Part shown: positions 34,422 to 37,352 of the stretch, piece by piece | Layout of the letters: every line of letters begins with the position of its first letter | How positions within the stretch are numbered: the first letter of the stretch is position 1 | DNA from: Pseudomonadota bacterium | GTDB taxonomy: Bacteria; Pseudomonadota; Gammaproteobacteria; Xanthomonadales; Rhodanobacteraceae | NCBI GenBank assembly: GCA_021793575.1 | Contig: JAJYSM010000003.1 | Span: 1 to 64,000 of the forward strand | DNA: 64,000 nt | Direction of reading: 5' to 3' | Notes under the pieces: generated by a model | Told to the model about the DNA's origin: nothing | What the model saw: the letters and a program-made list of their open reading frames with translations, nothing else | Databases searched by the model: none | Made by a program: the position numbers and the translations under genes

Positions 34422-37352
34422 ATGCTTTCCATCGTCGAAATCGACCGCGGCACGCCCGCCGTGAAGTCCGCCGCCAGCGTCGGCGTGGAGATCGACGGCC
34501 GCGTGCTGCAGGTGCCCGAGGGCACCTCGATCATGCGCGCCGCCGCGCAGGCCGGCATCGCCATCCCCAAGCTGTGCGCCACCGACATGCTCGACGCGTT
34601 CGGCTCGTGCCGGCTGTGCCTGGTCGAAGTGGAAGGCCGCAAGGGCTACCCCGCCTCGTGCACCACGCCGGTGAGCGAGGGCATGAAAGTCAGCACGCAG
34701 ACGAAAAAACTGGCCGAGATCCGCCGCGGCGTGATGGAGCTGTACATCTCCGACCATCCGCTGGACTGCCTCACCTGCCCCGCCAACGGCCACTGCGAGC
34801 TGCAGGACATGGCCGGCGTGGTCGGCCTGCGCGAGGTGCGCTACGGCTATGACGGCGCGAATCATGTTTTTGCGAGCATCCCTGCTCGCGAAGATCAAAA
34901 AGCGGCCATCCCTGGCCGCACTCCTCAATTCATTCCCAACCCGCTGTTCGCGGCGAAGGACACGTCGACGCCCTATTTCACCTTCGACCCGTCCAAGTGC
35001 ATCGTCTGCTCGCGCTGCGTGCGCGCCTGCGACGAGGTGCAGGGCACGTTCGCGCTGACCATCCAGGGTCGCGGCTTCGCCTCCAAGGTGGCGGCCAGCC
35101 AGAATGAAAATTTCCTCGGCTCCGAGTGCGTGTCCTGCGGCGCCTGCGTGCAGGCCTGCCCCACCGCCACGCTGAGCGAGAACACGCTGATCGAGCGCGG
35201 CCAGGCCGAGCACAGCGTCACCACCACCTGCGCCTACTGCGGCGTCGGCTGCAGCTTCCGCGCCGAGATGAAGGGCGAGGAAATCGTGCGCATGGTGCCG
35301 AACAAGGACGGCCAGGCGAACCACGGCCACTCCTGCGTCAAGGGCCGCTTCGCGATTGGCTACGCCAGCCATCCGGACCGCCTCACCGCGCCGATGATCC
35401 GCGCCCGGATCTCCGACCCGTGGCAGACGGTGAGCTGGGCCGAGGCGTTCGCCCACGTCGCCAGCGAGTTCAGGCGCATCCAGGCCAGCCACGGCACGCA
35501 TGCGATCGGCGGCATCACCTCCTCGCGCTGCACCAACGAGGAGACCTATCTGGTGCAGAAACTGGTGCGCGCCGGCTTCGGCAACAATAACGTCGACACC
35601 TGCGCCCGCGTCTGCCACTCGCCGACCGGCTACGGGCTGAAGGCGACCCTGGGCGAATCCGCCGGCACGCAGGATTTCGACTCGATCGAGCAGACCGACG
35701 TGGTGCTGGTGATCGGCGCCAACCCCACCGACGCGCATCCGGTGTTCGGCTCACAGATGAAGCAGCGGTTGCGCCGTGGCGCCAAGCTGATCGTGGTCGA
35801 CCCGCGCCGCATCGACCTGGTGCGCACGCCGCACATCCAGGCCGACTACCACTTGAAGCTCAAGCCCGGCACGAATGTCGCGGTGCTCAACACGCTGGCG
35901 CACGTGATCGTCACCGAGCGCCTGGTCGACGAGGCGTTCGTCGCCGCCCGCTGCGAGCCGGAGGCGTTCAACCGCTGGCGCGCCTTCGTGGCGCAGGACC
36001 AGCACAGCCCCGAGGCGATGGAAGCGGTCACCGGCGTGCCGGCGGCGCTGGCGCGCGGCGCGGCGCGGCTGTATGCCACCGGCGGCAACGGCGCGATCTA
36101 CTACGGGCTCGGCGTCACCGAGCACGCGCAGGGCTCCACCGCGGTGATGGGCATCGCCAACCTTGCCATGGCCACCGGCAACATCGGCCGCGAGGGCGTG
36201 GGCGTGAACCCGCTGCGCGGCCAGAACAACGTGCAGGGATCGTGCGACATGGGCTCGTTCCCGCACGAGTTCCCCGGCTACCGTCACGTCAGCGACGTGG
36301 CCACCCGCCGGCTGTTCGAGCAGGCATGGGGCGTGCCGCTGTACGACGAGCCCGGCCTGCGCATTCCGAACATGTTCGAGGCGGCACTCGACGGCACTTT
36401 CCTGGGTCTGTACATCGAAGGCGAGGACATCGCCCAGTCCGATCCGGACACCCAGCACGTCACCGCCGCGCTGTCGGCGATGGAATGCGTGGTGGTGCAG
36501 GACCTGTTCCTCAACGAGACGGCCAAATACGCCCACGTATTCCTGCCCGGCAGCTCGTTCCTGGAGAAGGACGGCACCTTCACCAACGCCGAACGCCGCA
36601 TCTCGCGCGTGCGCAAGGTGATGAAACCGCTGGCCGGCTACGCCGACTGGGAGATCACCCAGGAGCTGGCCCGCGCCATGGGCTACCCGATGAACTACAC
36701 CCACCCGTCGCAGATCATGGACGAGATCGCCGCACTCACGCCGACCTTCCACGGCGTCAGCTTCGAGCGCATCGACCAGCTCGGCTCGATCCAGTGGCCA
36801 TGCAACGACGCCGCGCCCGCAGGCACACCGGTGATGCACGTGGATGAATTCGTGCGCGGCAAGGGTCGCTTCATGCTCACCGAGTACGTGCCCACTCGCG
36901 AGAAGGTCAACGCGGCGCATCCGCTGATCCTCACCACCGGGCGCATTCTCAGCCAGTACAACGTGGGCGCGCAGACGCGGCGCACCGCCAACTCGGTCTG
37001 GCACGACGAGGATCGACTGGAAATCCACCCGCACGACGCGGAGGAACGCGGCGTCAGCGACGGCGACTGGGTCGGCATCACCAGCCGCGCCGGCGACACC
37101 GTGCTACGCGCGATGGTGTCCGGGCGGATGCAGCCGGGCGTGGTCTACACCACCTTCCACTTCCCCGGCTCCGGCGCCAACGTGATCACCACCGAGAACT
37201 CCGACTGGGCCACCAACTGCCCCGAGTACAAGGTCACCGCGGTGCAGGTGGTGCGGGTCAATCAGCCATCCGAATGGCAGAAGCGCCACCAGGCGTTCGA
37301 CCGGCAGCAGCAGGAATTGCTGCAAGCCGCCGAGCCAGCCGCCGGCCGCTGA
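34422..37352 (+). CDS. fdsA: NAD-dependent formate dehydrogenase, catalytic alpha subunit
   Basis: This 976-residue molybdopterin enzyme oxidises formate to CO2. Domains are [2Fe-2S] plus NuoG-like N-terminus (cysteines FGSCRLCLVE, LTCPANGHC), two ferredoxin-type [4Fe-4S] motifs (CIVCSRCVRAC, CVSCGACVQAC), the [4Fe-4S] motif CAYCGVGC near 270, and the bis-MGD domains. The molybdenum ligand is a cysteine (about C398, in RVCHSPTGYG), not selenocysteine. Residues about 149-170 are encoded by a pair of REP-like palindromes inserted in frame, between the GANHV sequence and the ferredoxin domain. The reading frame stays open and all cofactor ligands are present. Confidence 0.95.
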   Translation: MLSIVEIDRGTPAVKSAASVGVEIDGRVLQVPEGTSIMRAAAQAGIAIPKLCATDMLDAFGSCRLCLVEVEGRKGYPASCTTPVSEGMKVSTQTKKLAEIRRGVMELYISDHPLDCLTCPANGHCELQDMAGVVGLREVRYGYDGANHVFASIPAREDQKAAIPGRTPQFIPNPLFAAKDTSTPYFTFDPSKCIVCSRCVRACDEVQGTFALTIQGRGFASKVAASQNENFLGSECVSCGACVQACPTATLSENTLIERGQAEHSVTTTCAYCGVGCSFRAEMKGEEIVRMVPNKDGQANHGHSCVKGRFAIGYASHPDRLTAPMIRARISDPWQTVSWAEAFAHVASEFRRIQASHGTHAIGGITSSRCTNEETYLVQKLVRAGFGNNNVDTCARVCHSPTGYGLKATLGESAGTQDFDSIEQTDVVLVIGANPTDAHPVFGSQMKQRLRRGAKLIVVDPRRIDLVRTPHIQADYHLKLKPGTNVAVLNTLAHVIVTERLVDEAFVAARCEPEAFNRWRAFVAQDQHSPEAMEAVTGVPAALARGAARLYATGGNGAIYYGLGVTEHAQGSTAVMGIANLAMATGNIGREGVGVNPLRGQNNVQGSCDMGSFPHEFPGYRHVSDVATRRLFEQAWGVPLYDEPGLRIPNMFEAALDGTFLGLYIEGEDIAQSDPDTQHVTAALSAMECVVVQDLFLNETAKYAHVFLPGSSFLEKDGTFTNAERRISRVRKVMKPLAGYADWEITQELARAMGYPMNYTHPSQIMDEIAALTPTFHGVSFERIDQLGSIQWPCNDAAPAGTPVMHVDEFVRGKGRFMLTEYVPTREKVNAAHPLILTTGRILSQYNVGAQTRRTANSVWHDEDRLEIHPHDAEERGVSDGDWVGITSRAGDTVLRAMVSGRMQPGVVYTTFHFPGSGANVITTENSDWATNCPEYKVTAVQVVRVNQPSEWQKRHQAFDRQQQELLQAAEPAAGR
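34868..34925. repeat. Pair of REP-like palindromes inside fdsA
   Basis: Two short palindromes share the same TCCC loop: GCGAGCA-TCCC-TGCTCGC (34872-34889) and GCGGCCA-TCCC-TGGCCGC (34902-34919). They are separated by 12 nt with A-runs. They resemble paired extragenic palindromes but lie within coding sequence and translate as ASIPAR and AAIPGR. The insertion keeps the frame. Confidence 0.8.

Follow-up and report, generated by a model that had tools for sequence, protein, structure and literature searches.

The fdsA gene, encoding the alpha subunit of NAD-dependent formate dehydrogenase, occupies positions 34422..37352 on the plus strand of the window (the whole 64-kb stretch of DNA that was analysed) as an intact open reading frame of 976 aa, within which a palindromic element lies in frame. 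The reading frame scores 928.6 bits against the NCBIfam model TIGR01591 (Fdh-alpha; cut-off 666.25) and is homologous to the solved FdsA structures 6tg9/6tga and 9wxb, with an alignment that extends across nearly the whole length of FdsA. The Cys and His positions expected to serve as cofactor ligands are invariant in an alignment of 40 homologous sequences, which agrees with the description, in an earlier note on this DNA, of an insertion that keeps both frame and ligands.

The whole bipartite element, as delimited by a covariance model (R1), spans 34868..34929 and is predicted to be read as residues ~150-171 of the protein (FASIPAREDQKAAIPGRTPQFI). All of its parts are given here on the plus strand. 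Hairpin 1, GCGAGCA-TCCC-TGCTCGC (GCGAGCATCCCTGCTCGC, 34872..34889), has a perfect 7-bp stem in a variant seen at fdsA only, and is separated by a 12-nt linker common to intergenic copies (GAAGATCAAAAA, 34890..34901) from hairpin 2, GCGGCCA-TCCC-TGGCCGC (GCGGCCATCCCTGGCCGC, 34902..34919), which also has a perfect 7-bp stem and is the most conserved part of the element; a conserved 3' tail follows (ACTCCTCAAT, 34920..34929; consensus ACTCYTCAAn). The two palindromes with TCCC loops that the earlier note had recognized in the fdsA frame are present, 12 nt apart; of the extent it had proposed, 34868-34925, the start stands, whereas the R1 match reaches slightly farther at the other end, to 34929. 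Nowhere else in the 64 kb do two perfect 7-bp stems, each with a TCCC loop, occur as a pair, and RNA folding of the element is far better than that of shuffled sequences (z = -5.3). When read on the minus strand, hairpin 2 (34902-34919) is followed by TTTTT and looks terminator-like for antisense transcription. A search of the window against Rfam at the gathering score gave no match to the element and found a tRNA alone.

R1 was built from 13 copies of the repeat, all of them located outside fdsA. The aligned copies define an architecture of about 62 bp (TTTTGCG..[A/G]TCCnTG..CGC, the linker GAAGATCAARAA, GCGGCCATCCATGGCCGC, and the tail ACTCYTCAA), with two 7-bp hairpins closed by TCCN loops, the linker of 12 nt and the conserved tail; the first stem differs among copies with its pairing retained. 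The element itself is gene-free. The consensus has no terminal inverted repeat, and its flanks (TTTTGCG, GAAGATCAARAA, ACTCYTCA) contain no GTAG or CGTC tag at the hairpin end. R1 matches the fdsA copy at exactly 34868-34929 with 81.1 bits (E 5.9e-21 in the window search and 2.9e-19 in the genome search), the second-best match within the 64-kb window reaching 14.3 bits.

This genome (G000, 3.2 Mb) contains 9 occurrences of the core GCCATCCCTGGC and 0 of the reversed control, and hairpin 2 (GCGGCCATCCNTGGCCGC) is found in nearly all genomes of the genus, in exact copies that number 0-18 per genome, the reversed controls giving 0. A genome search for the unit, a check that had been proposed beforehand, returned 20 R1 matches here, most of them without a coding frame running through them. 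R1 also matches all 45 searched genomes of the genus (probably Rhodanobacter), with 3-57 matches each and the largest number of copies in G013. The element is dispersed and mostly intergenic, and it is present in every genus genome searched, in line with its initial description as REP-like and normally intergenic. The order-wide R1 search found matches in 14/19 genomes of the Rhodanobacteraceae, a family of soil bacteria; outside the family 5 genomes matched, mostly weakly. Dyella, Oleiagrimonas and Dokdonella are further named carriers. The repeat is a Rhodanobacteraceae-specific dispersed family that is rare beyond it. The copy at G000:C56:73299-73360 (L224, minus strand) seems to provide the last codons and the stop of the upstream gene (..VEKCGQGRPLSDARAQG and stop). 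This genome also has five similar copies of another, longer repeat with several hairpins, CCTGTGGTTTTCTTC...CCGGCCATCCCTGGCCGG...CCTCTCAG, which have the GGCCATCCCTGGCC hairpin in common (loci L001, L003, L004, L006 and L008, ~1410-1640).

We consider it very probable that the fdsA segment is one copy of this mostly intergenic, dispersed palindromic repeat of the Rhodanobacteraceae, predicted to be translated as about 20 extra residues of FdsA. The length of this FdsA loop varies across Proteobacteria, and one might instead think of a plain variable loop with chance palindromes or of an error of assembly. Such explanations have a negligible probability, given that R1, built from dispersed copies, matches at 81 bits and that the same insert recurs in other genomes, those of G011, G019 and Oleiagrimonas and, in decayed form, that of Dyella jiangningensis, which is complete. 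The insert lies between NHV and NPLF and displaces about six loop residues, so that FdsA has a net 14 residues more than the closest empty alleles and not the approximately 20 that the earlier note had counted as added. The comparison of FdsA homologues for which it had called places the insert residues outside the distant homologues, which lack them, and family members with similar residues around imperfect palindromes resemble eroded copies. AlphaFold2 models, computed with alignments from the sequences of this analysis, have a mean pLDDT of 66 for FdsA (~50 in the insert region) and of 36 for MutS, another host of the repeat; because of this low pLDDT they are too poor to place the loops of either protein.

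At the fdsA site, close relatives have an empty loop, the same element, an eroded copy or a reversed copy. The empty loop (xxDGSANPLF, xxGEANPLF) is ancestral-looking and is also found in Pseudoxanthomonas and in Alphaproteobacteria. When the insert is left out of the fdsA tree, alleles with a filled, an empty or a reversed site are intermingled and ten state changes are needed: G000, with its forward insert, is sister to the empty G047; one tight clade contains G019 (forward), G010 (empty) and G043 (reverse, with R1 matching the opposite strand at 72.9 bits); Oleiagrimonas (filled) groups with G056 (empty), and D. jiangningensis (partly eroded) with G057 (empty). A single clade of forward copies is rejected (AU p 4.6e-8), and so is one that unites the lineages with the unique first stem (p 5e-58), both values being somewhat weakened by the naming of the groups after the alleles had been seen. 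The unique hairpin-1 variant occurs in four non-sister lineages (G000, G011, G019 and Oleiagrimonas), and the reverse allele, with its YPEM flank, is common to G043 and REEB27. In the eroded copies of G044/G029, G048 and Dokdonella the palindromes have decayed and part of the peptide remains. L025 (G052), from another genus, has a different extension of the FdsA loop, ESRQPVPKGFGEITAVRTQNGK, with a GCCGAAGGGTTTCGGC hairpin, in a genome that is element-rich.

The mutS gene, in which the insert replaces a loop of the LREQIAALD type, has 11 filled and 21 empty alleles with 8 state changes on the tree, and a single filled clade is rejected (AU p 3.2e-7). G000 itself gives no MutS match at a genome completeness of 99.8%, and nearly all other genomes of the genus have MutS; loss of the gene and an assembly gap are both possible. 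A single deep entry into fdsA and mutS within the family, followed by many losses, would account for the eroded forward copies in basal lineages (Dokdonella, G048), which imply at least one old insertion. It would, however, require many exact losses that restore an ancestral-looking loop, and it leaves the reverse-orientation copy at the fdsA site unexplained; we therefore regard it as unlikely.

Coding calls were based on an open frame, codon-position GC and NCBIfam; a codon-score gene caller was dropped because it mislabelled fdsA itself. The 71 matches in G000, G043 and G024 yielded five open reading frames with an open frame through the element and coding composition, the coding copies of G000 being those in FdsA and in valyl-tRNA synthetase (ValS). 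A genus-wide peptide search, after which 60 long-frame cases were read, showed that MutS, DnaG, DapE, HutF and GcvP contain the peptide REDQEAAIHGRT or a variant of it internally and that IlvE and LeuD carry it at their C-termini. This search favours a single frame; in ValS the copy is in another frame, and one fdsA copy lies on the opposite strand. R1 matches with open frames show in-frame copies in RecJ and another GcvP. The in-frame hosts, with identities confirmed by NCBIfam, are about ten unrelated core proteins (FdsA, ValS, MutS, DnaG, GcvP, DapE, HutF, RecJ, IlvE and LeuD); for FdsA and MutS, relatives were shown to have empty alleles. The copies in RlmN, named from its protein sequence, are N-terminal and may precede the true start. 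Units of 63-66 bp are arranged in tandem, three in IlvE of G043 and three in MutS of G010. At least three of the six reading frames are open in typical copies; because the frames are usually stop-free to this extent and the length can be a multiple of three, phase-matched copies in tolerant loops or C-termini would be survivable.

A different account of the scattered alleles attributes the spread of filled ones chiefly to interspecies homologous recombination over short tracts, not to fresh insertion. The unique hairpin-1 variant in non-sister fdsA lineages fits allele exchange as well as it fits reinsertion, and both the reverse allele shared with its flank by G043 and REEB27 and the ~100 nt common tract beside the mutS insert of G013 and G030 speak for exchange; from the latter tract, transfer between species has had at least some part. 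On the other hand, the right flank of fdsA in G000 is nearest to that of its empty sister G047, flanks are not shared among the carriers of most mutS inserts, the flanks of both genes mostly track the host gene, and the many different host genes would remain unexplained. As the principal route, recombination appears to us a serious contender that falls somewhat short of an even chance.

The repeat is conserved to the same degree at the three codon positions in coding copies (0.90/0.92/0.94) and in intergenic copies (0.90/0.92/0.94), the third position being the least variable in both. Intact fdsA inserts show many nonsynonymous changes and few synonymous ones, the latter below the prediction from the flanks (e.g. 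0.7 vs 5.0, P 0.02, with ~15 synonymous sites per pair, pairs that are not independent and P values uncorrected for multiple testing). Conservation follows the DNA, not the peptide. Recruitment of the inserted peptide for a protein function could explain why a related peptide is retained in eroded alleles (ASIPAGGNHEAAVHGRTA in G048), but it is hard to reconcile with the accumulation of nonsynonymous changes where synonymous ones are scarce, with third positions that vary least, and with the many relatives that have no insert; we hold it to be quite improbable. The conservation of the DNA with its pairing retained, the terminator-like minus-strand hairpin with its TTTTT and the position of many intergenic copies just upstream of apparent start codons would fit hairpins that are kept for a structural job in DNA or mRNA, such as mRNA stability, antisense termination or protein binding. 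Recent copying alone would likewise yield conservation at the DNA level, however, and the frequency of empty alleles in close relatives implies that there is no essential role in fdsA, so that this explanation is, on balance, rather unlikely.

Neither a target-site duplication nor a transposase was found for the element, and for this reason we infer its movement from the distribution alone; at fdsA and mutS no duplication is readable because filled and empty sites differ by replacement. The fetched flanks of 28 Y1_Tnp loci contained 0 copies of the element, and a Y1_Tnp gene is absent from G013, the genome richest in copies; these results led us to reject RAYT as the mover. Membership in the RAYT-linked GTAG/CGTC REPs is not supported, there being no tag and no linked RAYT. 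The RAYT-like Y1_Tnp gene of G000 (L191 1100-1500 and right flank, G000:C118) is flanked by a different REP, GTGGGAGCGGCTTCAGCCGCGATGC. The repeat would then be a non-autonomous element, mobile or copied, that is moved by some other activity. Its entry into genes may be through new insertions at preferred sites, through short-tract recombination from one species to another, or through both routes, its spread in loops and tails being presumably tolerated rather than selected for the peptide, and the inserted element may later erode into ordinary peptide. We put forward tentatively, as a possibility that we judge to be less than even by a clear measure, that this non-RAYT element repeatedly invades the same codon positions of conserved genes in separate lineages and in both orientations, replacing the native loop in phase. 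If true, such repeated invasion would imply a targeted, sequence-guided insertion process that acts on coding DNA.

In-frame palindromic elements have so far been a curiosity mainly of Rickettsia and Wolbachia, which are obligate intracellular bacteria, apart from scattered REP examples in other organisms. The family described here lives in free-living, often culturable bacteria and in dozens of genomes, and close relatives show the same gene empty, filled or eroded, and with the element reversed or in tandem; because these states co-occur in close, culturable relatives, the route of entry into coding DNA and the effect on enzymes become testable. No report of such elements in Rhodanobacteraceae was found in the open-access literature searched, most subscription journals being outside its scope, and a literature search for the core sequence found nothing; this family, its hosts and the interleaved same-site states of fdsA and mutS were likewise not found in the searchable, mainly open-access literature.

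The closest counterparts are the Rickettsia palindromic elements (RPEs), reportedly the work of Ogata and Claverie, to which the earlier note had already likened the fdsA copy, a likeness that extends to the other genes in which the element lies in frame. RPEs and their Wolbachia counterparts are also dispersed palindromes, intergenic as well as in frame in many conserved genes, with the insert read as extra protein residues, which in the present case are predicted from sequence. In contrast to RPEs, which are 105-146 bp long and have terminal inverted repeats (PMC2229807), the element is about 62 bp long with two separate hairpins, and it belongs to a free-living gammaproteobacterial family in which it recurs at the same site in separate lineages. 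As far as sequence can tell, the repeat is of the RPE-like, protein-coding palindromic kind and not one of the Rickettsia RPE families proper.

Intragenic GTAG/CGTC REPs that keep the frame have been described in genes for DNA repair and for tRNA synthetases (Di Nocera 2013, PMC3733652), with a REP at about the same site in recB of two Xanthomonas species (PMC3733652). These are similarly short REP-like hairpins, often paired, mostly intergenic and sometimes in frame; the present element differs in having no GTAG/CGTC tag and no linked RAYT, and in hosts that include MutS, DnaG, GcvP, DapE, HutF, FdsA, IlvE and LeuD. REPINs, the short paired palindromes dispersed by the REPIN/RAYT system, resemble it in form, but the element is absent from the fetched flanks of the 28 Y1_Tnp loci. 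Intragenic MITEs of the ERIC and Correia types (~100-200 bp; PMC2229807) are, like the repeat, non-autonomous and have open frames fused into genes; they differ in having terminal inverted repeats and, in many cases, duplicated target sites, neither of which is seen here. The element works like the Rickettsia coding palindromes and the REPs of Di Nocera, yet it is a separate family.
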